NCBI GenBank assembly: GCA_031292655.1
Contig: JARLGO010000415.1
Location: 1 to 36,245 of the forward strand
DNA from: Geothrix sp.
Lineage (GTDB): Bacteria > Acidobacteriota > Holophagae > Holophagales > Holophagaceae
Length of the DNA stretch: 36,245 nucleotides
Direction: 5' to 3'
In this document: piece by piece, positions 264-36,073 of the stretch
Numbering within the stretch: position 1 is the stretch's first letter
Layout: each line of letters starts with the position of its first letter
The notes under the pieces: generated by a model
Seen by the model: the letters and a program-made list of their open reading frames with translations, nothing else
Database searches by the model: none
Told to the model about the DNA's origin: nothing
Position numbers and translations under genes: made by a program

Positions 264-286
264 TCGCGCGGGCCGCTGCGGTGATA

Positions 287-307
287 TTGCAAAAAGAATG
301 GAAACTC
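287..307 (+). promoter_or_regulatory. Left-end transposase-binding-type site
   Basis: TTGCAAAAAGAATGGAAACTC; shares the CAAAAAGAATGGAA core with sites at 350 and 36074. Confidence 0.7.
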
Positions 308-349
308 AGGGCCAGGAGGCAGTCACGGATGGCGGCCGGCTTCGCGTCT

Positions 350-368
350 TTCAAAAAGAATGGAAGTT
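350..368 (+). promoter_or_regulatory. Left-end transposase-binding-type site
   Basis: TTCAAAAAGAATGGAAGTT, 19-bp exact match to 36074-36092. Confidence 0.75.
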
Positions 369-375
369 TTCCGCT

Positions 376-1086: not shown

Positions 1087-1127
1087 TTTCTGTCCCTCCT
1101 CAAAAATACCCCTTGCGGGTAGCCATA

Positions 1128-1147
1128 ACGGGTATTACATTACCCGT
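1128..1147. promoter_or_regulatory. Putative operator: ACGGGTA-N6-TACCCGT inverted repeat
   Basis: Perfect 7-bp arms in the divergent repressor/early intergenic region; extra half-site GCGGGTA just upstream. Confidence 0.7.
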
Positions 1148-1150
1148 GAA

Positions 1151-1168
1151 GGCTAAGGCACCTTAGCC
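1151..1168. promoter_or_regulatory. Putative second operator: GGCTAAGG-CA-CCTTAGCC inverted repeat
   Basis: Perfect 8-bp arms, 2-nt spacer, directly upstream of the ATG at 1183. Confidence 0.6.
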
Positions 1169-1182
1169 GCTGTGGAGCCATC

Positions 1183-1524
1183 ATGAGTCAAGATCACGGC
1201 CCAGACAAGGGCAGGCCTGAGGCCTGTCTAGAAGACGGCCTGGCGCAACACCGCACCCTATCTGAGATCCAGCTGGTGTTCGTAAACCACGTCAGAAAGA
1301 ACGGGAGCCTCACGCCAATTGGCATCAAGGCCCTGCTTGAAGCTGAGGGAGTGACCATCCGCACCTTTGCGGAGCTGCTTGGTGTGACAGAAGGATTTGT
1401 CCACCAGGTCATCAGTCGCCACCGCAGGAACAAGCGTGTGGAGGACGCCATCACCGAACGGCTTGCCCGCTATGGGTTCGCATCAGACCGGATCTGGGGC
1501 CGCCAGACCGAACCCGCCGCCTGA
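1183..1524 (+). CDS. Early HTH DNA-binding protein (Ner/Cro-like position)
   Basis: First rightward gene; HTH-like segment IKALLEAEGVTIRTFAELLGVTEGFVHQVISRHRRNKRVEDAI. Confidence 0.65.
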   Translation: MSQDHGPDKGRPEACLEDGLAQHRTLSEIQLVFVNHVRKNGSLTPIGIKALLEAEGVTIRTFAELLGVTEGFVHQVISRHRRNKRVEDAITERLARYGFASDRIWGRQTEPAA

Positions 1525-1528
1525 CACC

Positions 1529-3889
1529 ATGGCCACCTGTGCCCGCCCCTCTCTATCCGAGAGCCTGGCCTCAGCCGAGGTTGTCCTGTCTGGTTGTCCT
1601 GTGGTTGTCCTGTCGAACAGGACAACAGGACAACCGGGCCTACGGACAGGACAACCGTCATTAAATGACTGCAAAGCTGAGTCTTGCTTCTCACCGAAAG
1701 ACAAGTCGGAGTCATCTTCTTTTGCCCCTACGGTTGTCCTGTTCAGTGTCCCAGAGCTGGCGGAACTGGCAGGTGTAAGCCGTCAATCGGTGCTTAAGGC
1801 GGTCCTCGCGAAGAAGCTCGAATCCGAGGTGGTCACCATCACGGAGGGGCGTCGAACAGGCCGAACTGAGCACCGGATCCACCCTTCCGCTGCATTCGCC
1901 TACTATCCCGCCGCCCGCGCCGCGTTCGAGGTCCGCCAGTCCGCCGCTCTGCCTGTGGCCACGCGCTCGGCCATGCCGGTCATCAAGCGCGACCCCCAGC
2001 AGGTCGTCCTGCGGGCCAATCCCGAGGCCCTCCAGCGGGCGCGGCAGGTCCAGCAGGCCCGGCTGAAGCTGATCGAAAAGACCCGCCTCCTCCTGGCCGA
2101 GCAAGGCCCCTCGCGCCGCTCCGCCAAAAAGGGCCTCCCCGGCGCCGTGTGCCAGGCGGCCATCACCTGGCTGTTGACCGCGCCGGAGGCCGAGGATGTG
2201 CGCCTGGTCCTGGGGGAGATCCCCAGCACCTCCACCCTTAATAGGTGGTGGGCGGCCCTGGCCGAGGACCCCAGCGGGGAGGCTCTGCGCCCCCAGTGGA
2301 GCGCCTGTGGCCGGCCCCGCAAGGTCGAGCAGGATCCCGAGCTGCTGGACAAGATCACCGGGGCCTTTGCCCACGCTGGCAGCTTCGCCTTGGCGGCCGA
2401 GCACCTGCAGAAGCAGGGCACGGCCATCAGCGAGGCCACCCTGCGCCGGGTGGTCCAGAGCCTGGATCCCGCCATCCGCATGGGATTGCGCTTTGGCAGC
2501 CGCAAGGCCCAGACCGACCTGGGGCCCTACGTCCGCCGGCGCCCCAGCGCCCCCTTCCAATGCTGGTCCATCGACGGCCACACCGAGGACTCCATGTGGA
2601 TCTGGGAGGAGCTGCTGCCCGGGGAACAGCCGAAAGGCTTCCGGCCCAACATCTATGCGGTGCGGGACGTGGGATCAGGCGCCCTCCTCAGCCTGACCGT
2701 GGGCTACAACCTCAACCGCTACCTGCCGTTCATGGCCATCGCCGAAGCCATCCTCCGGACCGGCGTCATCCCCGAGACCATCCAATCGGACAACGGCCGC
2801 GAGGTCCGGAACCGCTTCTTCCTGGGCGACGAGGACATGGTGGGCTACTTCCCCCAGCTGGCCATGGACTGGAAGGACGACGAGGCCCTCTGGCGCGGTG
2901 CGCTGCCCTACAACAGCCGCTCCAAGCCGGTGGAACGCGACTTCCTGAACGTCAAACAGCGTTTTTCAGCCCTTATTCCCACCTTCACAGGCGGAAGTCC
3001 CAGTACCAGGCCCGGCGACACCCTGGGCGAAGCCCTCAAGCGGGGCCAGATCGAGACCATCGACAGCCTGAAGATGCGCCTGGAGGCCTTCCGCGAAGCC
3101 GAGCTGGACCGCGTCCGCACCATCCACGGCCACAAGATCCACCCCCGCCAGGCCCTGGAGCAGGCCAAGGCCTCCCTCTTGCGCAGCCTGGGCCCGGAGC
3201 ACCCCCGCTTCATCCGCCCCGGCCAGGAATGGCGCGTGCTTCCGAGCCTCAAGGCCCAGAAGGCGCGGGGCTACGTCACCTGCAAGGTCGAGGGCCAGGA
3301 ATTCCGCTACAGCGCCCCCATCCTGCACGAGGTCGACGCGGACAACCTGACCGTGCGGATCAACCTCTGGGATGCCCGTCAGGCCTGGCTCTGCCGGGGC
3401 GGCGAGCTGCTGGACACCCTCACCTTCGTGCCCGATGGCCCCGAGCTGGGCGCCGCCGAGACGGATGTGGTGTCGCTCCGCATCATGCAGAACGCCAAGA
3501 AGACCCAGAAAGCCGTCATCCGGCGGGCCGAGGTTGAGCGCGACCGCATCCGCACGGCCGAAGGCTTCCAGGTGGGCCGCCCCACCCTCAAAGTGCTCCC
3601 CCAGGAGCCCATCGAGGTCAACGACCTGACGGATGACCAGCTCCGCCGCGCCCAAGAGCAGCGCCAGAAGCTGGGCCTCACTGAACCCGCCATCCCCCAG
3701 CCAGAGCCAGCCCCGGCTGATCCGGAAGCCCCGGTCCGCCTGGGCCGCGCGGGCCTCAAAGACCGCCTGGACTGGTGCCGCTACATGCTCACCAACCCGG
3801 ACGACGCGGATGACGACGAACGGCGCGATTTCCAGCGCTACCTCGACGCCAATCCCCTCGTCCGCCAACAGCTGGGCATCCCTGCCTAG
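1529..3889 (+). CDS. MuA-type DDE transposase
   Basis: rve-like core with acidic residues in WSIDGHTED, IQSDNGRE and KPVERDF, followed by Mu transposase C-terminal-like region; in-frame ATG at 1529 chosen over the longer ORF start at 1397, which overlaps the previous gene. Confidence 0.92.
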   Translation: MATCARPSLSESLASAEVVLSGCPVVVLSNRTTGQPGLRTGQPSLNDCKAESCFSPKDKSESSSFAPTVVLFSVPELAELAGVSRQSVLKAVLAKKLESEVVTITEGRRTGRTEHRIHPSAAFAYYPAARAAFEVRQSAALPVATRSAMPVIKRDPQQVVLRANPEALQRARQVQQARLKLIEKTRLLLAEQGPSRRSAKKGLPGAVCQAAITWLLTAPEAEDVRLVLGEIPSTSTLNRWWAALAEDPSGEALRPQWSACGRPRKVEQDPELLDKITGAFAHAGSFALAAEHLQKQGTAISEATLRRVVQSLDPAIRMGLRFGSRKAQTDLGPYVRRRPSAPFQCWSIDGHTEDSMWIWEELLPGEQPKGFRPNIYAVRDVGSGALLSLTVGYNLNRYLPFMAIAEAILRTGVIPETIQSDNGREVRNRFFLGDEDMVGYFPQLAMDWKDDEALWRGALPYNSRSKPVERDFLNVKQRFSALIPTFTGGSPSTRPGDTLGEALKRGQIETIDSLKMRLEAFREAELDRVRTIHGHKIHPRQALEQAKASLLRSLGPEHPRFIRPGQEWRVLPSLKAQKARGYVTCKVEGQEFRYSAPILHEVDADNLTVRINLWDARQAWLCRGGELLDTLTFVPDGPELGAAETDVVSLRIMQNAKKTQKAVIRRAEVERDRIRTAEGFQVGRPTLKVLPQEPIEVNDLTDDQLRRAQEQRQKLGLTEPAIPQPEPAPADPEAPVRLGRAGLKDRLDWCRYMLTNPDDADDDERRDFQRYLDANPLVRQQLGIPA
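1579..1742. repeat. Cluster of seven GGTTGTCCTGT motifs, direct and inverted
   Basis: Direct copies at 1579-1589, 1592-1602, 1603-1613, 1732-1742; inverted (ACAGGACAACC) at 1617-1627 (one mismatch), 1625-1635, 1646-1656. Confidence 0.9.
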
Positions 3890-3923
3890 CCCCCATAACC
3901 CATCCCTCTGGGAGGAGGACCCC

Positions 3924-4691
3924 TTGCACCAAGTTTTCTGCCACACCGTCAGCAACGTCTCGCGCCTGTTGGCCGGCATCGCCATCGTCCAGGAGCGAGG
4001 CGCGGCCGAGGCCTGCCAGATGCTCGTCACCGGGCAGCCCGGCCTGGGCAAGACCGAGACCCTGGGCTGGTATGTCACCCAGCAGCCCTATGCCGTCTAC
4101 CTTCGGGCCAAGTCGGGCTGGACGCGCCATTGGTTCCTGAATGACCTGCTGGCCGAGCTGGGCGAAGCGCCCGCCCGCCTCACCGAGGACATGTTCAAGC
4201 AGGCCCTGGCCGCCCTGGCCCGCAAGCCCTACATCCTGGTCGTGGACGAGGTCGAACACGCCCTCAATGATACCCGCGTGCTGGAGGCCATCCGCGACTT
4301 CAGCGACCTGCTGCGGCTCCCCACCGTCTTGGTGGGCATGGCCGAGGTTCGCAACAAGATCGCCCGGCATCCCCAGGTCCAAAGCCGCATCGCCACCATC
4401 GTCACCTTCCAGCCCGCCACCCTGGAGGACGTGAAGGCTACGGCCATGATGCTGCTGGAGGGCGGCGTGGCCATCACCGACGAGGTGGCCGAGCTGATCC
4501 ACTTGCGCTCCGAAGGCCGCATGCGCCTGGTGCTGAACGGCCTGGCGGCCTGCGAGCGCGTGGCCCGGCTGCGGAAGACCAAGACCGTGGGCCTGGCCGA
4601 AGTCAAGGATGTGGAGCTGGTCCACGACTGGCAGTCCCGCAAGCCCCAGACCCTGAAGCCCCAGGCCCGTGGGGCGAAGGAATCGCTGTGA
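3924..4691 (+). CDS. MuB-type AAA ATPase, transposition target DNA activator
   Basis: Walker A GQPGLGKTE, Walker B-like ILVVDEVEH, directly downstream of the transposase; TTG start preceded by GGGAGGAGG. Confidence 0.88.
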   Translation: MHQVFCHTVSNVSRLLAGIAIVQERGAAEACQMLVTGQPGLGKTETLGWYVTQQPYAVYLRAKSGWTRHWFLNDLLAELGEAPARLTEDMFKQALAALARKPYILVVDEVEHALNDTRVLEAIRDFSDLLRLPTVLVGMAEVRNKIARHPQVQSRIATIVTFQPATLEDVKATAMMLLEGGVAITDEVAELIHLRSEGRMRLVLNGLAACERVARLRKTKTVGLAEVKDVELVHDWQSRKPQTLKPQARGAKESL

Positions 4692-5248
4692 ACGTGGCCG
4701 ACCGCATCCTCCAGGCCCTGGCGCCCGACCCCCAGCGGCTGGGGGACCGGGTGTCCGTGGGAAGCCTGGCCCTCAGCCTGGGCTTGACGAACGTCTCGGT
4801 GCGCTTCGCCCTCTATGCCCTCAAGGACCGCAAGCTCGTCCGGCGCTGCTGGAAGGGCGTCTATGCCATCACCCCCGCGGGCCTCCAGCACCTGGCCGAG
4901 GGGAAGACCATCACCAGCGGCCCCAAAGGCCCGCGAACGAATCCAAGCCCCTTCGCCCCATCCACCTTGCGCTCGCGCCTGTGGCGGGCCCTCCGCCTCA
5001 AGCGGGTGGCCTCCGTGGATGAGCTGCTGCTGTTGGCCGCCAAGGGCAACGAGGGCAACGCCAAGGACGACGCCCGGCGCTACCTCAACGCCTTGCACAA
5101 GGCCGGGATCCTCGATCCCGCCTACACCCGCACCGGCCCCCAGCGCTACCTGCTACTGCGGGACCGGGGCCCCCTGGCCCCCCAGTGGAACAAGCGCCAG
5201 AAGCGGGTCTTCGACCCCAACGACGGGACCACCTATGACCTGGCGTGA
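4688..5248 (+). CDS. Winged-helix-like early phage protein
   Basis: GTG start overlapping MuB stop; VSVGSLALSLGLTNVSVRFALYALKDRKLVRRCWKGVYAITPAG looks wHTH-like. Confidence 0.55.
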   Translation: MNVADRILQALAPDPQRLGDRVSVGSLALSLGLTNVSVRFALYALKDRKLVRRCWKGVYAITPAGLQHLAEGKTITSGPKGPRTNPSPFAPSTLRSRLWRALRLKRVASVDELLLLAAKGNEGNAKDDARRYLNALHKAGILDPAYTRTGPQRYLLLRDRGPLAPQWNKRQKRVFDPNDGTTYDLA

Positions 5249-5546
5249 GCTGCTCGAAATCAAGATCGCCGATCGTGGCCAGGCGGCTGTGGCCCGCGAA
5301 CTGGGCTATTCCGCCACCACCCTCAGCCTGGTCCGCCGGGACAAATACCCCGCCGGCATCGAGCAGATCGCCGCCCGGGTGCTGGACCTCTACGGCGAAG
5401 TCGACTGCCCCTTCCTGGGCCACTCCATCCAGGCCGAGCCCTGCCGCCGCATCAGCCACGGGCCGGTGCCCACCTCCAATCCCAAGGCCATCCAGCACTG
5501 GTCGGCCTGCCAATCCTGCCCCCACTTCAAAGGAGCCAAGCCATGA
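5235..5546 (+). CDS. Small HTH protein with cysteine-rich C-terminus
   Basis: AAVARELGYSATTLSLVRRDKYP HTH-like and later cysteines C-P-F...C...C-x2-C. Confidence 0.6.
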   Translation: MTWRELLEIKIADRGQAAVARELGYSATTLSLVRRDKYPAGIEQIAARVLDLYGEVDCPFLGHSIQAEPCRRISHGPVPTSNPKAIQHWSACQSCPHFKGAKP

Positions 5547-5830
5547 GTACCTTCGAGCCCTCGCAGCAGGTGGCCGCCTTCGCCGCCGCCGCCTACACCG
5601 CCGGCCACGCCATCAGCTTGATCACCGATCAGACCAGCGTCGACATGGCCTGCGACGCGGTCAAAGAGGCCATCCAGCGCTCTCTGCCGCTGGCCAGCGT
5701 CGAACTGACCCTCGCCAACCTGCTGCGGGATGAGGAGGGCTTCCCCCCCCCCTCCCTGCAGGGCCTCTTCTTCCAGCTGAATAACCAGATCAGCATCCTC
5801 CGGGCCAGCGGGCGCTTTCTCTCCGCATGA
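5543..5830 (+). CDS. Hypothetical early phage protein
   Basis: ORF with stop/start overlaps on both sides; contains C10 tract 5743-5752 read in frame. Confidence 0.6.
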   Translation: MSTFEPSQQVAAFAAAAYTAGHAISLITDQTSVDMACDAVKEAIQRSLPLASVELTLANLLRDEEGFPPPSLQGLFFQLNNQISILRASGRFLSA

Positions 5831-5952
5831 CCAGGCCCGCCAAGGCCCTGGTCTGGGTCCTCGCCCCTTTCTGGCTGCCGATCCTCGGCGCCCTTCACCT
5901 TCGGGACGCCTGGCGCCGCTGGCACCACCGCTATCCGACCTCCCGCCTTTAA
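5827..5952 (+). CDS. Small hydrophobic protein (41 aa)
   Basis: MTRPAKALVWVLAPFWLPILGALHLRDAWRRWHHRYPTSRL; overlaps the preceding stop; not in the supplied ORF track. Confidence 0.4.
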   Translation: MTRPAKALVWVLAPFWLPILGALHLRDAWRRWHHRYPTSRL

Positions 5953-5972
5953 CCCCCCATCAAGGAGCACGC

Positions 5973-6584
5973 ATGGCCATCAAGATCCCCGAAGGCTACC
6001 GCCAGAACGCCAACGGCGACCTGGTCCTCATCGAAAACATCAAGGCCATCGACCTGCTGCGGGACGAGCTGGTGGTATCCATCGCCGCCCGCTCCCGTGA
6101 GCGGTCGGGCGAGCTGGCCGAATTCAAGAACAGCATCATGGCCGAAATCCAGGCCTTCGTGGCCACCAGCGCCGAGCGCTTCAAGGCCAAGCTGGGCGGC
6201 ACCAAGGGCAACCTGACCCTGATGAGCTTCGACGGCCGGTTCAAGGTGGTGTTGGCCCAGCAGGACAACATCAGCTTCGACGAGCGCCTGCAGGTGGCCC
6301 ACAGCCTCATCCAGAAGTGCATCAAGAAGTGGAGCGAGGGCGCGGATTCCAACCTGCTGGCCCTGGTCAACGATGCCTTCCAGGTGGACAAGGCCGGGAA
6401 CGTGAGCATCCGCCGCGTCCTGGGCCTGCGTTCCCTCGACATCAACGACACCCACTGGAAGAAGGCCATGGACGCCATCGCCGAATCCGTTCAGGTCACC
6501 GGCAGCAAGAGCTACATCCGGGTCTACGAGCGCAACGAGGCCGGCGACTACCTGCCCATCTCCCTCGACATGTCGGGGGTGTAG
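5973..6584 (+). CDS. DUF3164 family Mu-like phage protein
   Basis: Sequence type (IPEGYRQNANGDLVLIENIK...) and location; RBS AAGGAG upstream. Confidence 0.75.
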   Translation: MAIKIPEGYRQNANGDLVLIENIKAIDLLRDELVVSIAARSRERSGELAEFKNSIMAEIQAFVATSAERFKAKLGGTKGNLTLMSFDGRFKVVLAQQDNISFDERLQVAHSLIQKCIKKWSEGADSNLLALVNDAFQVDKAGNVSIRRVLGLRSLDINDTHWKKAMDAIAESVQVTGSKSYIRVYERNEAGDYLPISLDMSGV

Positions 6585-6585
6585 C

Positions 6586-6981
6586 TTGAATCAGCTGCTG
6601 CAGGACCTGAACCTGCCCCGGCGCCCCATGGGCTACCTGAGCGCCCCCATGAGCGCCCCCGATGCCCTGACCCGCGCCAAGCACCGCTTCCTGGCCCTGG
6701 ACGCCTCCCATCACCTGTGGGAGGCCGAGATCCTGCACTACTGCCCCATGGCCAACGCACCCATCATCGGCACCTCCGATGTGCATTATGAGGTCTGGAT
6801 GGCCATGGACCTGGAGGTCCTGCGCCGCTGTGACTACATCCTGCTGGTGGGGGAATGGGGCACGAGCGCAGGGTGCCGCCGCGAGCTGGCCATGGCCCGG
6901 AGCCTGGGCAAGCCGGTCGTCTTCAACGTGGAGGACGCCATCACCCTGGATCGGGAACTGCTGGGACGGATCGTCTCGTGA
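6586..6981 (+). CDS. DUF4406-like / nucleoside deoxyribosyltransferase-fold protein
   Basis: GYLSAPMSAPDAL...LRRCDYILLVGEWGTSAGCRRELAMARSLGKPVVF; TTG start. Confidence 0.6.
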   Translation: MNQLLQDLNLPRRPMGYLSAPMSAPDALTRAKHRFLALDASHHLWEAEILHYCPMANAPIIGTSDVHYEVWMAMDLEVLRRCDYILLVGEWGTSAGCRRELAMARSLGKPVVFNVEDAITLDRELLGRIVS

Positions 6982-7652
6982 CCAGCGAACCCGCCACCGC
7001 CCGGCCCTTGCCCTGCCTGATCCACATCCAGGGCGAGGACTACGTCTGGACCGAGGAGGGCGGCCTGGACCCCGCCGCCGTCCTCACACTCCGGCGGTTC
7101 ATCTGGCGCGAGGCCAAGCGCTACGCATCGGTCGGCCTCCGCTCCGGTTTGTCCCTGGAGGACCTGGCCCAGGAGGGGCAGCATGGCGCCCTGGTGGCCG
7201 CCCGTCGCTTCGATCCCACCAAGGGCCTCCGGTTCATCACCTATGCCGTCTGGTGGATCCGCGCCCGCATCCTGAACGCCCTGCGCAAGCACATGGTCTA
7301 CGTGCCGAAGGAAGTGGCCCGGGCCCTGCGCCAGAACGGCGGCCTGCCGCCCGTCTGCTCCCTCGATCTACCCCTGTTCGCCGACGGGACCACCCTCGGC
7401 CAATGCCTGGCCGGCGAATTCGACCAGACCACCACGGAAGCCCCGGTCGTGGCCCTGGAAGTCCGGCGCCTGGTCCGCAAACTCAAGCCCAGAGAGCAGC
7501 ACATCCTTGTCCGGCACTACGGCCTTGATGGCCAGCCTGCCGAAACCCTGGCCGCCGTCGCCGTCACCCTGGGCTTGAGCCGCGGGCGCGTCCGTCAACT
7601 GGAGAGCCAGGCTCTGGCCCAGCTCCGGAAAGTCATCGCCTTCAAAGGCTGA
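6978..7652 (+). CDS. Phage-encoded sigma-70-like RNA polymerase sigma factor
   Basis: Region 2-like DLAQEGQHGALVAARRFDPTKGLRFITYAVWWIRARILNALRKH and region 4-like LKPREQHILVRHYGLDGQPAETLAAVAVTLGLSRGRVRQLESQALAQLRK; GTG start overlapping the previous stop. Confidence 0.85.
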   Translation: MTSEPATARPLPCLIHIQGEDYVWTEEGGLDPAAVLTLRRFIWREAKRYASVGLRSGLSLEDLAQEGQHGALVAARRFDPTKGLRFITYAVWWIRARILNALRKHMVYVPKEVARALRQNGGLPPVCSLDLPLFADGTTLGQCLAGEFDQTTTEAPVVALEVRRLVRKLKPREQHILVRHYGLDGQPAETLAAVAVTLGLSRGRVRQLESQALAQLRKVIAFKG

Positions 7653-7664
7653 ATGGGAGGATTC

Positions 7665-7871
7665 ATGCCAGACGCAGAGGTTCAACACCGCCGCATTGCC
7701 CACGTCGAATTCAGCGGTCCAATGGCCACGAAAGTGATCCTCAATGATGGCTCTGAACTCGATGGGCTCATCAGGGTCGATGTCATAGGCCGTGAATGGG
7801 ATTTACCTTATTTCAAGATCGAGGGATACATCCAGGGGAAGCCTGAGCCCCAAGGCGGCTGCGATGACTAG
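7665..7871 (+). CDS. Hypothetical phage protein
   Basis: ORF with GGGAGG RBS before ATG 7665. Confidence 0.5.
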   Translation: MPDAEVQHRRIAHVEFSGPMATKVILNDGSELDGLIRVDVIGREWDLPYFKIEGYIQGKPEPQGGCDD

Positions 7872-8049
7872 TCAATTCGCAGTCCAGCTCACCATTGACG
7901 ACGCGATCCGGGAGCGCAAGCGCCAGGAACGCGCCGCCACACGGTCCACCCGGGACCAGCACCGTCAGCGCAAGGCCGCCACGGCCGGCTCGCCCCTGCT
8001 CCCCCTGGAATCCACCGAAGCCGAGACCGGCGAGGTGAACCATGGCTAA
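7864..8049 (+). CDS. Hypothetical small basic protein
   Basis: ATG overlapping previous stop; ...ERKRQERAATRSTRDQHRQRK... Confidence 0.5.
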   Translation: MTSQFAVQLTIDDAIRERKRQERAATRSTRDQHRQRKAATAGSPLLPLESTEAETGEVNHG

Positions 8050-8274
8050 GCCTTGGGCCGAGGGTGAACACGTCCGCTGGCGCACCACCCCGCTGGGGGA
8101 GAGCGCCCACATCAAGGGCGGCAAGTGCGTGGGCTCCTATTGGGCGGGGGGGGGGGCAAATTCTTTGCCAACTACCACCGTGTCGAGCGGTTTGCGGGCC
8201 CCTTCAACGGCCCTTCCGAGGCCCGCGGCTGGGTGGACGACCAGGCCCGGCTTGAGTTCCAGGAGAAGCGATGA
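8042..8274 (+). pseudogene. Hypothetical phage gene disrupted by frameshift at G11 tract (8146-8156)
   Basis: After the G run the frame reading GKFFANYHRVERFAGPFNGPSEARGWVDDQARLEFQEKR* has typical codon usage and ends overlapping the ATG at 8271; the annotated frame becomes Ser/Pro/Arg-rich noise. Confidence 0.7.
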
Positions 8275-8498
8275 CCCCAGCCGCGCCTGACCTCATCACC
8301 TGTCCCGCCTGCCAAGGCTGGGGCGCCCTTCTTGAGGGCAAGACCGGCACCGTCCCCTGCGCCTTCTGCCAGGGCGAGGGCACCGTCGAGGCCCGCGAGG
8401 AGGCCCCTGCGCTCCTCGTCGTCGTCTGCCTGGCCGTGATGCTCTGCCTGGTGGTGGCGGGGGTCTATCTCCTCGACGCCATCGTGGGAACGTCATGA
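8271..8498 (+). CDS. Zinc-ribbon plus transmembrane small protein
   Basis: CPACQGWG...CAFCQGEG (DnaJ-type CxxCxGxG) followed by hydrophobic helix. Confidence 0.6.
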   Translation: MTPAAPDLITCPACQGWGALLEGKTGTVPCAFCQGEGTVEAREEAPALLVVVCLAVMLCLVVAGVYLLDAIVGTS

Positions 8499-9271
8499 GC
8501 GAGAACGCCCGCATCCGCGAGGTCCGCCAGGAACTGGCCGAGCTGCGCGACCCCGGCGCCCAGGACGGCCCCGGCCACGACCTCTTCCTGCTTCTCCAGA
8601 AGAGCTACCTCGAGGAGTTGGAGCTGCTCGGGGCGCCCATTCAGCCGGAGGAGCCTCGCCGGCCCCTACCACATCTGGCCCGCATCCCGGTCAAACCTGC
8701 AACAAACCCGGCCATTCCCGCACCAAAGCCGCCCGTTTCTGCAACGCAGCCGGAGGCCTTGGATCCGACGCCAACCCAGGAGGTGCGTCATGCCGACAGC
8801 CCCGGTAACGCCGGGGCACCTGGCGCCTCTTCCATTCCAGAGATCCCCATGCCCAAGCAGGCCGCCAAGACCGACGAAGAAAAGGCCGCCGCGAAGCGCG
8901 AGTACCAGCGCCGCTGGTATGCCAAGAAGCATCCCAAGGTCCCGTCCAAGCAAAGTGCCCCCCCCCAGCAGTTCGCCGATGCCCTGGAAGGGCTGGACGC
9001 CGCCTTGCGCACCCTGCCTGAGGCCGAACCGATGGTCATTGACCGCACGGGCCACGGTACGCCACTTCGGGCCCTGGGCACCTACCCTCCACCACAAGAA
9101 GCCATTCCCGAAGCCGCCAAGCGCCTGCGCACCCTCCGTGCCCAGGCGCTGGAGATCCTGCCCCTTTGCGAGGGCCTGTCCCGCGAGGACGGCTATGCCG
9201 TGCGCCATCAGATCGACCTCCTGGCTGATGTGCTGGCCATGGGTGACCGGATTGCCCGGGAGGCGTCATGA
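8495..9271 (+). CDS. Hypothetical phage protein
   Basis: Long ORF overlapping neighbours by 4 nt at each end. Confidence 0.6.
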   Translation: MSENARIREVRQELAELRDPGAQDGPGHDLFLLLQKSYLEELELLGAPIQPEEPRRPLPHLARIPVKPATNPAIPAPKPPVSATQPEALDPTPTQEVRHADSPGNAGAPGASSIPEIPMPKQAAKTDEEKAAAKREYQRRWYAKKHPKVPSKQSAPPQQFADALEGLDAALRTLPEAEPMVIDRTGHGTPLRALGTYPPPQEAIPEAAKRLRTLRAQALEILPLCEGLSREDGYAVRHQIDLLADVLAMGDRIAREAS

Positions 9272-9537
9272 AGGCCCTCTACACCCGCCGCATGCCCCAC
9301 AAGACCAACCATCTGCCCGTGGGCATCTCCACCACCTGGCGGAAGCGGAAGGGGCGGCGCCCCTACCTCGAATTCCAGGTGCTCTGGGCCGACCGGCGGG
9401 GGAAAGCCAAGATCCGCCACTTCTATGTGGGCGTCGATCCCACCCACATCCGCCTGCGCCTGGAGCTGGCGCGAGCCATCGCCTTCCGCCGCGCCTATGA
9501 ACTCACCCGCCCGCCCTTCACCCGCCAAGCCGCCTGA
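9268..9537 (+). CDS. Small basic protein, possibly AP2-like DNA-binding
   Basis: PVGISTTWRKRKGRRPYLEFQVLWADRRGKAKIRHFYVG...ARAIAFRRAYE pattern; weak assignment. Confidence 0.45.
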   Translation: MKALYTRRMPHKTNHLPVGISTTWRKRKGRRPYLEFQVLWADRRGKAKIRHFYVGVDPTHIRLRLELARAIAFRRAYELTRPPFTRQAA

Positions 9538-9548
9538 AAGGAACTCCC

Positions 9549-9782
9549 ATGCAGGAATGCCGTACCGAAGACTCCCCCACCAAGCCCCTGGCCGCCATGC
9601 CCGAAGGCCCGAACAGCCGAAGCCTCCGCCGCGCTGGCCTCGTGCAGGCCGTGCTGGAGGTCATGGCCACGCCCCTGACCCTGAGGAAGCGCCCGGACCA
9701 ATCTGAGCCCCAGGAGACCCTGCGGGCCATGAACCGCCACGAGCGCCGCAAGGAAGCTGCGCTGGCGAGGAGGGGGCGATGA
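9549..9782 (+). CDS. Hypothetical phage protein
   Basis: ORF fits the overlapping gene chain. Confidence 0.5.
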   Translation: MQECRTEDSPTKPLAAMPEGPNSRSLRRAGLVQAVLEVMATPLTLRKRPDQSEPQETLRAMNRHERRKEAALARRGR

Positions 9783-10348
9783 GCTTCTTCCGCATGAATT
9801 CCATCGTGGTAGAAGCCTTCTGTTGGACTGGCGACATTGACCAGGCCGAAGATTCCGAGTGGGCTATCGCCGCCATCAAGGCTGGAAAGATCGTCTTTTA
9901 CATGGTGGGAAGCCCTGAGGTCCGCATGATCATCACGGCCATGGAAGGCGTGATGGAAGCGACCCCTGGCGACTACATCATCAAGGGAGTGAAGGGCGAG
10001 ATCTATCCCTGCAAGCCCGACATCTTCCAGATCATCTATAAGCCGGTTGATGCGCAGCATCCGGCGGAACGCATCCAAGCTGCGATCCGGGAGCTGATCC
10101 TCGCTTGCGCGAATATGGAGGCCATCCACGCGGCACAGGACATCCTTGCCTGTCGGTTTTACAAGGCCGATGGGTCCTACGAGGTGCTAGAGAGCGCCGA
10201 GGCCGTGATCACACGCCGGAAGGAATGCGCCGCCACCCTTCAGGACCAGGCCGCCGAGATCGCCACGCTCCGCCACGACCTGGCCAACGCCCAGCAGATC
10301 GCCATCACTGCGACAGAGCTTCTCCATCTGGAGCGGGCCCATGATTGA
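9779..10348 (+). CDS. Phage protein with PGDYIIKGVKGEIYPCKPDIF motif
   Basis: Motif common in small uncharacterised phage proteins (VVEAFCWTG...PGDYIIKGVKGE.YPCKPDIF). Confidence 0.65.
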   Translation: MSFFRMNSIVVEAFCWTGDIDQAEDSEWAIAAIKAGKIVFYMVGSPEVRMIITAMEGVMEATPGDYIIKGVKGEIYPCKPDIFQIIYKPVDAQHPAERIQAAIRELILACANMEAIHAAQDILACRFYKADGSYEVLESAEAVITRRKECAATLQDQAAEIATLRHDLANAQQIAITATELLHLERAHD

Positions 10349-10871
10349 CCTCGCCCTCATCGCGCCCCGTCCGGACGGGAAATACTCCACGAACCTCTGG
10401 CGGCACCTGAAGAAGCATGCGCTTCGCTACGGCCTCCAGGTGTTTCAGCGCACCGGGAGCTTCATTGACGGTTCCCCCACCGATCCGAAGGACTGGCATA
10501 TGGGCGACGTTTGGATTGGGGAAAACCCCGACCCAGGTTGGATCCATGGCCACACCCTTCGGGAACTTGTCCAGGACAGGTGCAGCTCCATGGGCTGGGC
10601 CATTCCTTTGGGGATCGGCGGCTTCAGGGAGATCACCGAGGAGTTCTGGGCGACCTACCTCCGCATCGGGCGCTGCGCTTGGGACCGTCGCCACTTCGAT
10701 TTCATGCGGAATAACGAACACCGCTTCACCATCGTGGGCGCCACCCGCCGCTGCAACTGGTGTGGGGAATGGCAGCGCTTGCAGGTGAAGAAGCACGTCC
10801 GTATCGCCCGGGACCAGGTCTGGGTTCCCCAACAGCGGCTGGGGGCGCCCATGCCCAACGCCATCAGGTGA
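10341..10871 (+). CDS. Hypothetical phage protein
   Basis: ORF in operon, overlaps previous stop. Confidence 0.55.
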   Translation: MIDLALIAPRPDGKYSTNLWRHLKKHALRYGLQVFQRTGSFIDGSPTDPKDWHMGDVWIGENPDPGWIHGHTLRELVQDRCSSMGWAIPLGIGGFREITEEFWATYLRIGRCAWDRRHFDFMRNNEHRFTIVGATRRCNWCGEWQRLQVKKHVRIARDQVWVPQQRLGAPMPNAIR

Positions 10872-10874
10872 GCC

Positions 10875-11060
10875 ATGCCCCTTCCTGAGCACCTCCAAGC
10901 CATGGCCAAGGCCCTAAGGGATCGCGTGGATGGCCTTCCACCCCAAGAGCAGGCCCCGATCTTCGCGGCGCTCTGCATCATTCGAGCCACGGTGCGGGCC
11001 CTTGGCGAGCCCGGGCAGATCGCCCTGGCCATCGCCGCCGCTGAATTCGCCGCCGAATAG
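10875..11060 (+). CDS. Hypothetical small protein
   Basis: ORF in operon. Confidence 0.5.
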   Translation: MPLPEHLQAMAKALRDRVDGLPPQEQAPIFAALCIIRATVRALGEPGQIALAIAAAEFAAE

Positions 11061-11079
11061 CGGCCCTCCAGGAGATCCC

Positions 11080-11400
11080 ATGTTCGCGCTAGTACGAGAA
11101 GCCTATGCACTGGTCAAGAAGCAGAAGGCGGAGCGCGTCGAGCGCCTCGAAAAGGCCGCCATCGCCAAGGCCTTCAATGATCGCTACACCTACCGGAAAC
11201 CGTGGGTCAAGGGCCTGCCGCGGCTCCCAGGCAGCGGCATGTTCGGCATCACCCCCGAGGGCGGCTACGCCTGGATGTGCCCCGAGTGCAACCGCATCCA
11301 CCATCCCGTAGAGTCCTCTGTCTTCTCTGGAATCCAATACCCGGCCTGCTGTCGATGGCCAGAGGGACATCGGTTCTATGACGAAATCAGGACCACGTAA
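11080..11400 (+). CDS. Hypothetical protein with Cys pairs
   Basis: ATG 11080 preceded by AGGAG; CPECNRIHH...PACC. Confidence 0.5.
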   Translation: MFALVREAYALVKKQKAERVERLEKAAIAKAFNDRYTYRKPWVKGLPRLPGSGMFGITPEGGYAWMCPECNRIHHPVESSVFSGIQYPACCRWPEGHRFYDEIRTT

Positions 11401-11418
11401 CGCGACCCAGGAGCCCAC

Positions 11419-11667
11419 ATGAACGACTCGCCCACCATCAAGGTCCTCTACTCCTGCCACAAATGTGGCATCAAGGACCGGCCCGTCCTGATCCCTGAAC
11501 GCCGGTTCGATGAGCCCATCACCAAATGGGTGGGTGACTTCGTGCCCAGATGCCTCTACCTCGACCACCTGATCGTCAGCCCCGGCTGCCGAATCGACAG
11601 CTTCTCCGAGGTCAAGATCCCCCTGCCTCCAGGCGAAGACTCCATCGGTTTCGCGACGGGGAACTAG
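11419..11667 (+). CDS. Hypothetical small protein with CHKC pair
   Basis: ORF preceded by AGGAG. Confidence 0.5.
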   Translation: MNDSPTIKVLYSCHKCGIKDRPVLIPERRFDEPITKWVGDFVPRCLYLDHLIVSPGCRIDSFSEVKIPLPPGEDSIGFATGN

Positions 11668-11671
11668 GGCC

Positions 11672-12067
11672 ATGACCGCCTTCCTCTCGATCAAGGATCA
11701 GAAGCGCGAGGCGCGGCAGAAGGCTGCGTCCGCCAAGGTCCCCCTCGCCACCCGGGTGGCTTTCATGGACGCCTGGCTCGCCTCAAAAGACTTCTCCATG
11801 AAGGACCTCGCCAAGGCCCAAGGGATTTCCGAGGACGCGGCCTGGGGCATCCTGAGCCATCCTCCTAGCTACAAACAAAGGCGGAGGCTGGAGGCCGATG
11901 CATTGCCTTTGGCCACCCGCCAGGCCTTCCTGGATGCCATGAAGGCAGGCCGGACTATGGGAGAAGCCTGCACGGCCACTGGGATCTCAACGGATGCGGG
12001 GATCTCGCTCCTGGCCCGTGCTTTCAAACGCCGCACCCACTACGACCTCGACTGGGTGGCGAAATGA
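11672..12067 (+). CDS. Putative DNA-binding protein with duplicated HTH-like unit
   Basis: PLATRVAFMDAWLASKDFSMKDLAKAQGISEDAAWGIL and PLATRQAFLDAMKAGRTMGEACTATGISTDAGISLL. Confidence 0.55.
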   Translation: MTAFLSIKDQKREARQKAASAKVPLATRVAFMDAWLASKDFSMKDLAKAQGISEDAAWGILSHPPSYKQRRRLEADALPLATRQAFLDAMKAGRTMGEACTATGISTDAGISLLARAFKRRTHYDLDWVAK

Positions 12068-12546
12068 GCACCCCGCTCCAGATCAAGATCATCCACACGC
12101 TGCGGGGGCAGATCCCGGGGCTGGCCGAGGACGACACCTACCGGGATTTCCTGGAGAACGTGGCCGGGAAGCGCAGCAGCAAGGACCTGAGCGAGTACGA
12201 GGCCCGGCAGGTGCTGCGGGCGCTGGAGCAGCTGCGGGGGCACAAGCCGGTCAAGACCAAGCCCATGGCGCCCCAGGACGAGCCCAAGGCCCGGCTCATC
12301 GGGCGGCTGCTGAGGGAGGCCTACAACGCGGGCTGGGACCAGCCCCAGGCGGCCGGCCCCTTCGATGCCAGCGAGACCGGACGCCGGGCGCGGGTGCGCG
12401 AGCGCGTGGTGGCCTGGCTGAAGACCAACCATCCTCACATCCACGGCACCCCCCAGCGCCTGGAGGCCTGGCCCATGGAGGCCCTCCAGCACCTGGTGGA
12501 GCACCTCAAAGGCGTCGCCGGTGCCCAGCGGCGCTGGAAGCGGTAG
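12064..12546 (+). CDS. GemA-like protein (Mu gp16 / DUF1018)
   Basis: LQIKIIHTLRGQIPGLAEDDTYRDFLENVAGKRSSKDLSEYEARQVLRALEQL pattern of the family. Confidence 0.8.
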   Translation: MSTPLQIKIIHTLRGQIPGLAEDDTYRDFLENVAGKRSSKDLSEYEARQVLRALEQLRGHKPVKTKPMAPQDEPKARLIGRLLREAYNAGWDQPQAAGPFDASETGRRARVRERVVAWLKTNHPHIHGTPQRLEAWPMEALQHLVEHLKGVAGAQRRWKR

Positions 12547-12574
12547 GATGGGCGGCAAACATAAGGGGGAAGAC

Positions 12575-12799
12575 ATGTCGGGAGGATGCACGGTGAAAAT
12601 CCAAGTTGAGTTTCTGAACTCGCCTAGCAGGGAGCCAGAAATTCACTCTGTTTCGCGTGTTCCAGTGGTTAATGAAACCCTTGTTACCGAACATGAGGAT
12701 TTCGATGTGAAACGGGTTACACATTGCCTCGATGCAGAAGACGGCTATTGCTCCGCCATTGTCCATGTGAAGAAGCGGGCGGATATCAACGTTGATTGA
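12575..12799 (+). CDS. Hypothetical protein, lower-GC insert gene
   Basis: 74-aa ORF with AT-richer codons, bracketed by similar leader sequences. Confidence 0.5.
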   Translation: MSGGCTVKIQVEFLNSPSREPEIHSVSRVPVVNETLVTEHEDFDVKRVTHCLDAEDGYCSAIVHVKKRADINVD

Positions 12800-12836
12800 A
12801 GCGGTAGGATTGGGCACCAAACACAAGGGAGGAACC

Positions 12837-13223
12837 ATGCGACAGCGAGCATTGATGGCCGTGGTCATGGCCTGTGGGTTGATGGGTGGGCTTTCAGCCA
12901 AACCCTCAGCCAAGACGCCAGAGGTGCAACGGCTGGAGACCTTCAACGACCTGGAGTCAGACAACGTCGACAAGGCCTACTTCCGGGGCGTTCAGCAGGC
13001 CGGAGACAAGGTCGTCATCCGGATCGCGGACCGTTGGCACCTGCTTTCCAAGGACCGGCGCGAGGCGCTGGCCAAGGGCATGTTCAAGCGGTGGTTCATG
13101 CTCGGCGCCCCACTGGGCCTTCATGAGAAGCCAGGCGCTTACCATTTCGAGTTCCGCCATGCCGAGAGCGACCGGCTGCTGGCGACCTGGGATGGGCTGT
13201 CGGGGTTGTCCTTGAAGGACTAG
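12837..13223 (+). CDS. Hypothetical secreted protein
   Basis: Signal-peptide-like MRQRALMAVVMACGLMGGLSAKP; RBS AGGAGG-like upstream. Confidence 0.55.
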   Translation: MRQRALMAVVMACGLMGGLSAKPSAKTPEVQRLETFNDLESDNVDKAYFRGVQQAGDKVVIRIADRWHLLSKDRREALAKGMFKRWFMLGAPLGLHEKPGAYHFEFRHAESDRLLATWDGLSGLSLKD

Positions 13224-13250
13224 CCGTTTCCAATCTTTATGACATCCCAT

Positions 13251-13275
13251 AGCCCCGCCCACGCGGGGCTTTTTC
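13251..13275 (+). terminator. Intrinsic terminator closing the early/middle operon
   Basis: AGCCCCGC-CCAC-GCGGGGCT followed by TTTTC. Confidence 0.85.
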
Positions 13276-13561
13276 ATGCCGGGACGGGGAATACCAGGCC
13301 TTCGTTGATGAGCCGTTCCACGTCCACCGGGCAGACCAGGACACGCCGGCCACCCTTACGGCCCTTGCGCTGCCAGATTCGGACGCGGGGGGCCTCGGGA
13401 GCGCAGTAGGTAGCTCGGAAGGCGTCCGGGGTCATCTGCATGCGTGCGGCGGCCTCTTTGGGGGTGAGCCATTCACCCAAGGGGGGTAGCTCCGCCAGGT
13501 CGTCGAAAGGCAGCCGGACCATGGCCGCCTGCCGCTTATCTTCCTGGAAGTGTGCCCGCAT
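13274..13561 (-). CDS. Excisionase/AlpA-like HTH protein
   Basis: EWLTPKEAAARMQMTPDAFRATY...RVRIWQRKGRKGGRRVLVCPVDVERLI. Confidence 0.55.
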   Translation of the reverse strand: MRAHFQEDKRQAAMVRLPFDDLAELPPLGEWLTPKEAAARMQMTPDAFRATYCAPEAPRVRIWQRKGRKGGRRVLVCPVDVERLINEGLVFPVPA

Positions 13562-13759
13562 CCCTGATCCCCTGGGCTAAAGATGCGCGATTGCCGCGAA
13601 CCGCGCAAACCCGTGGCCCAGAGGTAACAGGCCGGGCCGCGCTTTTCGTGATCTCCGCGCCTTCCGGCCCAGCCGCTGGCGGCCAGGGGATGCGCGGGCC
13701 ACCTATGGGGCTACCGCGGCGCGACCGTCCTCCCCTCCGGCCGTGCGGACTTCGGTCCC

Positions 13760-13789
13760 GGTCCAGGCGTCACCCCTTTCGCCTGGACC
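13760..13789. promoter_or_regulatory. Perfect 10-bp inverted repeat in leader of lysis operon
   Basis: GGTCCAGGCG-TCACCCCTTT-CGCCTGGACC, about 18 nt before the ATG at 13808. Confidence 0.6.
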
Positions 13790-13807
13790 GCCGCCCAAGG
13801 AGCCTTC

Positions 13808-14209
13808 ATGAACCTCAACTTCAGCCAGAGCACAGGACTGATCACCAAGGACGATGGCACCTCCGTGGCGCATGGCTGGGCCGGAAACGATTCGAATCCG
13901 GAGAACCCCCAGCGGATCCACGGGAAGCTCAACCCCGACAAGCAGGCCCTACACAAGATCGGCCCTCTGCCTCAGGGGGTCTATTCCGTCGGGCCCTGGG
14001 AAGAGAAGCATGGGCACCTGGGCGCCATGGTGGCGCCCCTCACCCAGATCAGCGGTGAGACGTTCGGGCGCGACGCCTTCTACATCCACGGCCCCGACCG
14101 AGACCCGGCCACGTATGGCCAGGAGTCCCTGGGCTGCATCGTGGTCCCCCACGCGGGCCGCCAGGCCATCAAGGACCTTGGCCCGGAGACTGTGACGGTG
14201 ACGGCGTGA
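13808..14209 (+). CDS. DUF2778-like peptidoglycan-targeting protein, putative endolysin position
   Basis: LNFSQSTGLITKDDG...GPLPQGVYSVGP...DAFYIHGPDR...ESLGCIVV resembles the DUF2778/L,D-transpeptidase-like motif (HG..S.GCI). Confidence 0.6.
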   Translation: MNLNFSQSTGLITKDDGTSVAHGWAGNDSNPENPQRIHGKLNPDKQALHKIGPLPQGVYSVGPWEEKHGHLGAMVAPLTQISGETFGRDAFYIHGPDRDPATYGQESLGCIVVPHAGRQAIKDLGPETVTVTA

Positions 14210-14451
14210 CCCCGCTCCTCCAAGCCATCCGTCACGCGCTCACTGGCAAGGACAACACGACCTGGGACCTGGGCCGGATCAGCTGGGCGTCCAGCTTCCT
14301 GGCTGTCGTGGGCCACGAGGCCCTCCAGCAATGGAAGGGCAAGGGCTCCAGTGTCCGCGACTTCGCCATCGCCCTGGCGGCCGTGGCGGCCGCTCACGGC
14401 GCGGCCCTAGGCCTGAAGGGCAAGACCGAGCCGGATGGAGGTGCCCAGTGA
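14206..14451 (+). CDS. Putative holin-like membrane protein
   Basis: Two hydrophobic stretches; between lysin-like and spanin-like genes. Confidence 0.5.
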   Translation: MTPLLQAIRHALTGKDNTTWDLGRISWASSFLAVVGHEALQQWKGKGSSVRDFAIALAAVAAAHGAALGLKGKTEPDGGAQ

Positions 14452-15068
14452 CGCCGCTGCGCTGGAAGATCCTCGCGGGTGCGATCGTCGCCCTGGTGCT
14501 GGTCTATGGCACGTTCTGGGTGGTCGAACACCACCGCCGGGCCACCGGCTCCAAGGACGAAGCCCAGGCCCAGGTCTTCAAGGGAGAGGCGAATGCCACG
14601 GAAGCGCAGGCCCGGCAGACGGACGCCAAGACGGAGGATGCCAAGGCCGGGGACGTGGCCGCCGGAAAGGTGGTGGCTCGGGTCGAAGCTGAACGCGCTC
14701 CCCTCCGCAAGGCCTGGGAATCCCGTCCGGTTCCCCCCGATATCCTTCCCCCGGCTGCCTCTGATGATCGCGCTGCTCTAATCGAGCAGCTGCACCAGGC
14801 CGAGGCCCTGATCGAAAAGGACCAGGAGGACATCGAGGCCCTGCAGAAGGCCTGCGCTGCCAAGGATGTCCTGATCGCCTCGGCCCTCCAGCGCGGCGAC
14901 GAATGGAAGGCCACCGCTGAGCTTCGGGAGAAACAAGCCCTGGCCCAGGAGGCGGCCACGGCGGCCTGGAAGGAGGCGGTCACCGCCTCCCGGTGGGAAG
15001 GCCGCATGGAGGGCGGGGGCGCCGTGGGCGGCATCTGGGGTCTGGCCAAACTCCTGGGGCACCTATGA
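14448..15068 (+). CDS. Putative Rz-like spanin component
   Basis: N-terminal TM (ILAGAIVALVLVYGTFWVV) then long charged coiled-coil; GTG start overlap. Confidence 0.5.
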   Translation: MTPLRWKILAGAIVALVLVYGTFWVVEHHRRATGSKDEAQAQVFKGEANATEAQARQTDAKTEDAKAGDVAAGKVVARVEAERAPLRKAWESRPVPPDILPPAASDDRAALIEQLHQAEALIEKDQEDIEALQKACAAKDVLIASALQRGDEWKATAELREKQALAQEAATAAWKEAVTASRWEGRMEGGGAVGGIWGLAKLLGHL

Positions 15069-15310
15069 GCGGCGATTTCCAGCCCTACCTTCAGCCCGCG
15101 GTGATCATCGGGGTTCTGGGCAGCATGCTCAAGTTCCTGGTGGCCGACCGGCTGAAACAGGTCACCACGGCCCTGGGCATCCATGAAAAGCGCATCCGGC
15201 GTACCGAGCTGCAGACCGCCCAGATCCGAGGCGCCCTGCGGGCCAAGGGCTGCCTCCAGATGGACGGCTGCCCCCTGGGTGATGACGACCTGGAAGGGGA
15301 CGGCCAGTGA
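15065..15310 (+). CDS. Hypothetical small phage membrane-associated protein
   Basis: ORF overlapping both neighbours; N-terminal hydrophobic segment. Confidence 0.5.
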   Translation: MSGDFQPYLQPAVIIGVLGSMLKFLVADRLKQVTTALGIHEKRIRRTELQTAQIRGALRAKGCLQMDGCPLGDDDLEGDGQ

Positions 15311-15780
15311 CCGTCCACGGCAACACCCGCTTCACGGCCGAGGACCGGGTCAAGGCCCGGCGCCTCTATGTGGAGGAGGGGTCCAACGTCGAGCAGATCG
15401 CCGCCATCATCGGCTGCTCCGAGCGCACGGTGCAGAGCTGGATCCGGGATCTGGGCTGGAAGGATGCCCGGTCCGCCTGGGTCGAGGTCCACGGGATCCC
15501 CCTGGAGGAGCTGGAGGAGCGTGCCCTGCGCAAGCTGCTGGGCCGCCTGGAGCGCGAGGCCTCGGAGCTGCAGCCCGCCGAGCTGCTGTCGCTGCTCACC
15601 CACGTCAATCGCTTCAAGGCCCTCATCGCCAAGCAGCAGGGCTACCGCCTGATGGACGCGGCCCTGGTGGTGGGCGAGGACTTCCAGTCCTTCGTGCTGC
15701 GGGAATTCCCGAACGAGGCCACGCGCCTGCTGGAGGCCTGGAAGGCCTTCCTGGATGAAGTCAACCGGAGGACCGCATGA
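15307..15780 (+). CDS. Small terminase-like / Mu gp27-like (DUF1804) protein
   Basis: HTH near N-terminus (EQIAAIIGCSERTVQSWIRDLGW), immediately upstream of large terminase. Confidence 0.75.
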   Translation: MTVHGNTRFTAEDRVKARRLYVEEGSNVEQIAAIIGCSERTVQSWIRDLGWKDARSAWVEVHGIPLEELEERALRKLLGRLEREASELQPAELLSLLTHVNRFKALIAKQQGYRLMDAALVVGEDFQSFVLREFPNEATRLLEAWKAFLDEVNRRTA

Positions 15781-17453
15781 GCGGCCCGCGCATCCACATC
15801 CCCCGCGCCACAGGCGCCCGGGCCCGCAAGAAGGCCGAGGAGCTGGAGCAGCTCATCGCCCGCCTGCGGGAGATGGAGGATTTCCCCGCCGATGCCCGCA
15901 CGGCGGAAGGCACCCTGGCCCGGCGCAAGGCGGCCCAGGCGAGTTTCCATTCTTTTTGCAAGACCTACCTCCCCGACCTGATCCAGGGCGACGGCTGTGT
16001 CCTGCATGACGACATTGCCGCTGGCTGCCAGGCCCTGGGCGACGGGAAGGCCGCACCCGTGCGCGATCCCGGCCCCTTCGGCGAGGTGGTGGAACCGGCC
16101 GACCAGGCTCTGGAGGCGGCGGAGATCCACGCCGTGGTCAAGGCCGCCCCCCGTGGCCACGCCAAGAGCACCTGGGGCACCATCGCCTTCAGCGCCTGGT
16201 GCATCCTCACGGGTCGCAAAGGCTACGCCCAGCTGGTGTCGGACACCCAGGACCAGGCCAAGGGCTTCGTGGAGGCCATCCGCACCCTCATCGAGGAGAG
16301 CCCCCGCATCCGCTGTGACTGGGGCCAGGTGCAGGTGGAGGGCCCCGAGGGCCTCATCGACCTGGTGGTGCCCACCGGCCCCGAGGGCGAGCGCCCGGCC
16401 TTCCGGCTGGCGCGGCTCCAGGGCTTCGGCTCGGGGCAGCGCCTGCGCGGCCGCACCTTCCAGGGCCGCCGGCCGGACCTGATCATCCTCGACGACGTGG
16501 AGAACGACGAGGCGGTGGAGAACCCCGACCGCCGCAAGAAGCTCCGCCGGTGGTTCATCAAGGCCGTGCTGCCCGCGCTGGATCCCAGCTGCGGGGCCCT
16601 GGCGGTCTGGGGCACCATCCTACACGAGGACAGCCTGCTCTGGTCGGTCCTGCGCATGTTCGGCGGGGCCATCTGGCGGTGCTGGGACGAGGGTGAGACG
16701 CCCCTATGGCCGGAGCGCTTCCCCGCCGGGCACCTCCGCTGGCTGCGCGCCACCATGGACGCCGAAGATCCCGGCAGCTTCGCCCAGGAGATGGAGAACC
16801 GCGCCCAAGGCGATGACGAAAAGCCCTTCAAGGCCTTCCAGGAGTACGACCAGCTGCCGGAGCGGCTGTCGGTCCTGACCCACATCGACCCCGCCATGGG
16901 CAAGCGCCGGAGCGACTTCACGGCCCTGGTGACCGTAGGCTTCGCGCCGGATGGCCTTTGCTACGTGCTGGACGCCGTGATCAAGCGCCTGGGTCCCACG
17001 GAGACCGGCCGGGCCATCCTCGCCCAGCGGGAGAGCTACCCGGGCGCGGTGCAGTCCGAGGACGTGGCCTACCAGGCGGCCCTGGTGGAGATCGTGGACC
17101 TGCTGTCGGCCAATGAGGGCGTCATGATCCCCGTGCGCCCGGTGAAGCCCATCGGCGGCGACAAGCCCACCCGCATCGCCAGCATGGCTCCCCATGTCGA
17201 GACGGGCCGGATCCTCTTCCCGCGCCTGAGCCCCCTGGCGAAGGGAAATGGCAGCATCGAGCCCTGCTTGATCGGGGGCGCCAGCGGCATCCGCAAGCTC
17301 CAGTCCCAGCTGCTCGCCTTCCCCAAGGGCGCCAACGACGACGGGCCGGATGCGCTCCAGGGCGCCGTGGCCGGCCGGTGGCGGAAGAAGTCCTTCGCCG
17401 GGGCTGGCATCGGCATGAAGCCGGGCCGTGAAGCCTTCGAGGTGCGCCTGTGA
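15777..17453 (+). CDS. Terminase large subunit, Mu gp28-like
   Basis: Walker-like APRGHAKSTWG, ...PDLIILDDVENDE, nuclease region HIDPAMGKRRSDFTALVTVG. Confidence 0.9.
   Translation: MSGPRIHIPRATGARARKKAEELEQLIARLREMEDFPADARTAEGTLARRKAAQASFHSFCKTYLPDLIQGDGCVLHDDIAAGCQALGDGKAAPVRDPGPFGEVVEPADQALEAAEIHAVVKAAPRGHAKSTWGTIAFSAWCILTGRKGYAQLVSDTQDQAKGFVEAIRTLIEESPRIRCDWGQVQVEGPEGLIDLVVPTGPEGERPAFRLARLQGFGSGQRLRGRTFQGRRPDLIILDDVENDEAVENPDRRKKLRRWFIKAVLPALDPSCGALAVWGTILHEDSLLWSVLRMFGGAIWRCWDEGETPLWPERFPAGHLRWLRATMDAEDPGSFAQEMENRAQGDDEKPFKAFQEYDQLPERLSVLTHIDPAMGKRRSDFTALVTVGFAPDGLCYVLDAVIKRLGPTETGRAILAQRESYPGAVQSEDVAYQAALVEIVDLLSANEGVMIPVRPVKPIGGDKPTRIASMAPHVETGRILFPRLSPLAKGNGSIEPCLIGGASGIRKLQSQLLAFPKGANDDGPDALQGAVAGRWRKKSFAGAGIGMKPGREAFEVRL
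15941..15961 (-). promoter_or_regulatory. Internal copy of left-end transposase-site motif within terminase CDS
   Basis: GAGTTTCCATTCTTTTTGCAA is the exact reverse complement of 287-307 (21/21). Confidence 0.8.
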
Positions 17454-36051: not shown

Positions 36052-36073
36052 ACGGCCCCAGGGCGGCCGTTCA

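Follow-up and report, generated by a model that had tools for sequence, protein, structure and literature searches.

Internal end-type sites in Mu-type Geothrix phages and their possible role as docking points for the transposase

Here, we observe that a Mu-type phage of Geothrix carries two internal sites, I1 and I2, which resemble the transposase sites at its ends, and that I2 lies within the codons of the large terminase gene. The two sites form a pair in right-end orientation, 36-48% along the genome. From the sequence comparisons given below, we put at about one half the probability that I2 is a genuine internal copy of the end site of transposase A, kept by selection, and that the I1/I2 pair docks A and acts in cis on transposition. 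Binding of A at both sites, as well as the effect of this binding, is what we infer.

The phage and its end-site array

The window, i.e. the whole stretch of DNA that was analysed (36,245 nt), is a whole single contig (G000:C100) from a genome with close relatives in Geothrix. It carries a complete Mu-type Geothrix phage at 142-36138 (35,997 bp) with the following features:

142-162, plus strand: left terminus of the element, TGTGAACCGTCGAAATGATTC
149-168, plus strand: end site L1
243-262, plus strand: end site L2
287-306, plus strand: end site L3 (287-307 is the I2 sequence on the opposite strand)
349-368, plus strand: end site L4
1742-3889, plus strand: Mu-type transposase A, phrog_310 (start uncertain, open frame from 1397)
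3633-4691, plus strand: AAA+ transposition protein B, phrog_296, AAA_22, TniB (true start probably near 3890-3920)
12550-13250: variable gene island holding I1, between gemA (12064-12546) and a conserved leftward gene (13274-13561)
13225-13244, minus strand: I1, internal end-type site, non-coding, two bases past a stop codon
15777-17453, plus strand: large terminase gene, phrog_38, with I2 inside
15942-15961, minus strand: I2, internal end-type site in the large terminase gene (21-bp match 15941-15961)
36073-36092, plus strand: end site R3, overlapping R2
36088-36107, minus strand: end site R2
36112-36131, minus strand: end site R1
36138: right terminus of the element, GCCACA

Transposase A matches phrog_310 with an E-value of 7e-45 over nearly the full protein, and the A proteins of Mu and D3112 belong to the same family. 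The family of protein B, phrog_296, also takes in Mu B. With a MuA-family transposase and a MuB-family AAA+ protein, the phage is of the Mu type; the window further holds a DUF1804 gene, a Mu portal gene and a Mu F gene. A search of solved-structure sequences with transposase A returned unrelated matches only, and a structure prediction of this protein from four sequences had a mean pLDDT of 45. The right part of the phage contains a direct duplication (33642-33799 and 33834-33991) of 158 nt, 87% identical and 192 nt apart.

Three relatives were compared with the window phage: G003 (IMG/VR contig 3300042876_000652), Geothrix sp. BP11 and Geothrix fuzhouensis SG12 (FUZ). All four share the termini TGTGAACC...GCCACA and carry seven end sites each at fixed positions. 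The left sites lie 8 (L1), 102 (L2), 146 (L3) and 207/208 (L4) from the left end, while the right end comprises R3 (+), R2 (-) and R1 (-). The element ends are confirmed by perfect 5-bp direct-repeat target duplications, as expected for Mu-type insertion, which flank two of the relatives (ATCAG in FUZ, AAGAA in BP11). TG...CA termini, several sites per end and a 5-bp duplication are all Mu-type characters, the duplication being present in these relatives and not in the window itself. There, the host flanks mismatch (CCTTG at 137-141 versus GTCAT at 36139-36143), and the contig was thus perhaps assembled from copies at different host insertion sites.

The array resembles that of Mu in its near-equal spacing on the same strands (8, 102 and 146 versus about 11, 116 and 156 in Mu). 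The right end of Mu likewise reads R3 +, R2 -, R1 - and was recovered by the same kind of search. Unlike Mu with its L1-L3, the Geothrix phage has a fourth left site, L4.

A natural mini-element of 4,148 bp with the same type of ends was found in a complete Geothrix genome (L153; G038 contig 1, about 2535846-2539992). It comprises L1-L4 and R1-R3 of the Geothrix phage type, a 5-bp target duplication (GCAAA), a repressor and a tail-end gene, is devoid of a transposase, and is apparently an internal-deletion derivative.

Interior sites I1 and I2

The initial annotation described 15941-15961 as the exact reverse complement of the left-end site 287-307, and indeed all 21 bp agree (TTGCAAAAAGAATGGAAACTC). 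Apart from 287-307 (+) and 15941-15961 (-), no place in the window fits this sequence with up to 3 mismatches, and 100 dinucleotide shuffles contained no match. The exact identity is confined to the window phage, because its L3 stands apart: in the five other elements whose left end could be read, L3 starts with CGTC or TTTC, whereas in the window phage it starts with TTGC and ends with AACTC, like I2. The perfect 21 bp are therefore a local feature, which possibly arose by conversion of L3 from I2 or by convergence; the conserved part is the motif at I2, which the relatives keep at the same terminase position.

This motif was described by a matrix that drew on nothing but the 28 end sites (seven in each of four phages) and was scanned over the whole elements. 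I2 reaches scores of 27.7 in the window phage, equal to L3, 26.8 in G003, 19.5 in BP11 and 22.4 in FUZ. The second internal site I1, which is absent from the initial annotation, lies on the same strand and scores 23.8, 16.6, 21.1 and 29.9 in the same order. Both are on the minus strand in all four phages, I1 at 0.36-0.39 and I2 at 0.44-0.48 along the element. The next interior score in the window phage is 14.0, and shuffles preserving local composition place the 95% limit for the best interior score at about 20, a level close to that of I2 in BP11. The I1 of G003 and, marginally, the I2 of BP11 are thus weak alone and become credible because of their place. The end motif is nearly the same across the relatives, and covariation of I2 with the end sites of its own phage therefore carries little weight either way.

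Site I1 and the early/late boundary

The island that holds I1 consists of unrelated genes in each phage, and two of its genes in the window have no Pfam match. When only the island was shuffled, the I1 score was reached in 1 (window), 82 (G003), 6 (BP11) and 0 (FUZ) of 5000 shuffles, corresponding to within-island p-values of 2e-4, 0.016, 1.2e-3 and below 2e-4, respectively. Directly after I1, G003 (L010) and BP11 (L005) have TTGACCTnAATnnGCAGCAAG in common, a conserved non-coding stretch.

In the window phage, I1 sits between the stop codon and a terminator-like hairpin, while I2 lies 165 bp inside its gene. Because of these positions both are unlike promoter operators, which does not fit the earlier suggestion of a transposase-controlled operator. 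A different influence on transcription is conceivable: A bound at I1, at the end of the early region, and at I2, at the start of the packaging and head genes, could form a roadblock to rightward transcription, such that the terminase is delayed until A has been consumed or replication has diluted it. This would suit the placement of both sites on the same strand of rightward-transcribed DNA around the early/late boundary, with none further right. However, I1 already precedes the hairpin in the window phage, and single-site roadblocks are usually weak. We regard a roadblock at the early/late boundary as a possible third option, though an unlikely one.

Codon choice at I2

The codons AGT, TCT and TTT had been pointed out as unusual, and the counts agree: elsewhere in the terminase gene of the window they amount to 0/21, 0/21 and 0/19, respectively. 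In FUZ, AAA and ACA occur at I2 and nowhere else in the gene. A four-way codon alignment shows 15 of 28 AT-ending codons at I2, compared to a mean of 3.4 and a maximum of 9 outside the region. No other run of AT-ending codons in the gene is as extreme, and this one spans just the length of the site. BP11 and FUZ have Thr ACA in place of Ser TCT, with the third base still AT despite the amino-acid change.

Even before any codon choice, the terminase residues F(Q/H)(S/T)FCK dictate a sequence on the other strand that resembles the end motif, and a plain chance calculation therefore overstates I2. In our codon null, the protein is fixed and codons are redrawn from the usage of the same gene. The expected mean score is 9-13, whereas 19.5-27.7 were observed. 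When the matrix for each phage was built without its own sites, p came to 1.3e-4 (window), 1.9e-4 (G003), 1.0e-2 (BP11) and 3.5e-3 (FUZ), values which are not independent because the four phages are related.

The initial annotation had read the codon choice as a sign of selection on the DNA. This is borne out by the three relatives, whose terminases are 83-90% identical and whose genes have an end-type site in the same codon positions. No synonymous changes that abolish the match were found in these three terminases; rather, unusual synonymous codons keep the site, even where Ser is exchanged for Thr. DNA-level selection at I2 is well supported.

Alternatively, I2 might not be a DNA site, and the constraint on F(Q/H)(S/T)FCK together with a conserved cluster of rare codons, as in translational pausing, could mimic the end motif. 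The peptide alone yields YTTRCARAANGN.TGRAA on the other strand, which is much like the end motif. Furthermore, once the AT-ending pattern is accepted, the precise codons show no additional constraint (p 0.11-1), and thus the codons alone leave room for pausing. However, I2 exceeds the usage-based null in each of the four phages, the window-phage I2 matches L3 over 21 bp, and the AT-rich run does not extend beyond the site. The non-coding I1, which carries the same motif on the same strand, also argues against pausing, and we consider this explanation improbable.

Pure chance as the origin of the internal sites is rejected by the shuffles, the matrix scan, the codon null and the island shuffles. 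I1 and I2 match the end motif beyond chance and coding constraint, the I1 of G003 being weak in this respect.

As stated in the initial annotation, I2 faces as a right-end site would, in the orientation of R1 and R2, but its proposed use as an alternative right end mobilising about 142-15961 is highly implausible on anatomical grounds: the TGTGGCG directly outside R1 and hence a terminal TG at R1 spacing is absent at I2, there is neither an adjacent R2/R3 partner nor a conserved terminus in the relatives, and the natural mini-element uses the true two ends.

Proposed role of the internal sites

An internal docking or synapsis element at I2 is a live reading. We suggest that transposase A docks at I1 and I2 and acts from there in cis on transposition. 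As a first choice, bound A would clear the AAA+ protein B locally, and the genome centre, far from the ends, would be spared self-insertion. How Mu avoids self-insertion is described as unsettled; its cis-immunity acts around end-bound A, is strongest within about 5 kb in vivo and does not account for protection of the whole interior (PMC7350765). When linear Mu serves as the target in vitro, its central regions are preferred for insertion (PMC2837660). Part of this interior gap would be closed by additional A sites at 13-18 kb. Cis target immunity of Mu and Tn7 only needs transposase-bound sites on the protected DNA, and homologues of A and B are present here; known Mu/Tn7 immunity works from the element ends, whereas the Geothrix candidate sites are internal. 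Two observations count against immunity. The scan for interior sites left the right half without any, where immunity would need one, and the conserved strand would be superfluous, although the number of independent loci is small.

In a close second version of the docking role, a central docking point would help the two distant ends to pair; Mu, too, depends on a gyrase site at its centre to bring its ends together (PMC3820752). This strong gyrase site, the SGS, is gyrase-bound and located at the Mu centre between genes G and I (PMC3820752). Like the proposed docking sites, it is a cis element from the middle part of a Mu-type genome with a possible end-pairing role, but I1 and I2 carry a transposase-end motif at 36-48%, with one copy inside the terminase.

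Like the putative docking sites, the Mu transposition enhancer (operator region, MuA domain I-alpha) is an internal cis element touched by the transposase during end synapsis, and it is contacted by a separate MuA DNA-binding domain. The enhancer occupies an AT-rich stretch to the right of the repressor gene (PMC5977238), whereas I1 and I2 lie at 13 and 16 kb in the window phage and carry the end motif. With the sites 13-18 kb from the left end and of the end-motif type, we do not assign them to the Mu enhancer.

We give slightly less than even odds to the broader view that this phage lineage keeps internal docking sites, one of them in terminase codons, for the protection of the centre or for a three-site synapse. 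If true, the phages would have a means of their own to keep a 37-kb transposon from inserting into itself or to bring its far-apart ends together, and an essential packaging gene would carry a second, non-protein message. The known aid to distant-end pairing in Mu is a gyrase site of limited distribution, and a natural phage group with mid-genome end-type sites would offer a clean handle on both self-insertion and end pairing. Mu-type end arrays themselves are known; new here would be the internal use of Mu-type end sites. In the literature searched, with most subscription papers outside its reach, there is no report of dedicated internal transposase sites.

Other relatives and Mu-like phages

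A fifth, partial phage (G027 contig 81, cut before the terminase) has L1-L4 and one interior site at 10.15 kb with a score of 23.7, on the same strand as I1 and I2. In L012, with a 66% identical terminase and its ends off the contig, the motif is absent at the I2 position. The sequence at this position (9760) is matched at 16 of 20 bases by another one 2.1 kb beyond it (11889), both on the minus strand, which might be a diverged site pair or due to chance. In the more distant Geothrix Mu-like elements G036 and G027 contig 83, a simple repeat search found no clear end arrays, and the search for further relatives turned up no more than single-site matches and the mini-element of 4.1 kb.

De novo end motifs were good for Mu and acceptable for BalMu-1 and RcapMu, and in these phages no interior end-type site exceeds the shuffles, with one-phage matrices of low power. 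Mu thus differs from the Geothrix phages, which have two such sites in each of four. For D3112, Ab30, B3 and SuMu the de novo motifs were unreliable or absent, and these four are uninformative on interior sites.

The insertion-free central segment of Pseudomonas phage Ab30 was suggested as a possible gyrase site (PMC5977238); its 37 bp have no likeness to the Ab30 ends. An inverted repeat, GGCACATTGTGCC / GGCACAATGTGCC, is located there (18736-18790 in L114) upstream of an accessory gene, and we infer that this segment may be an operator rather than a gyrase site.
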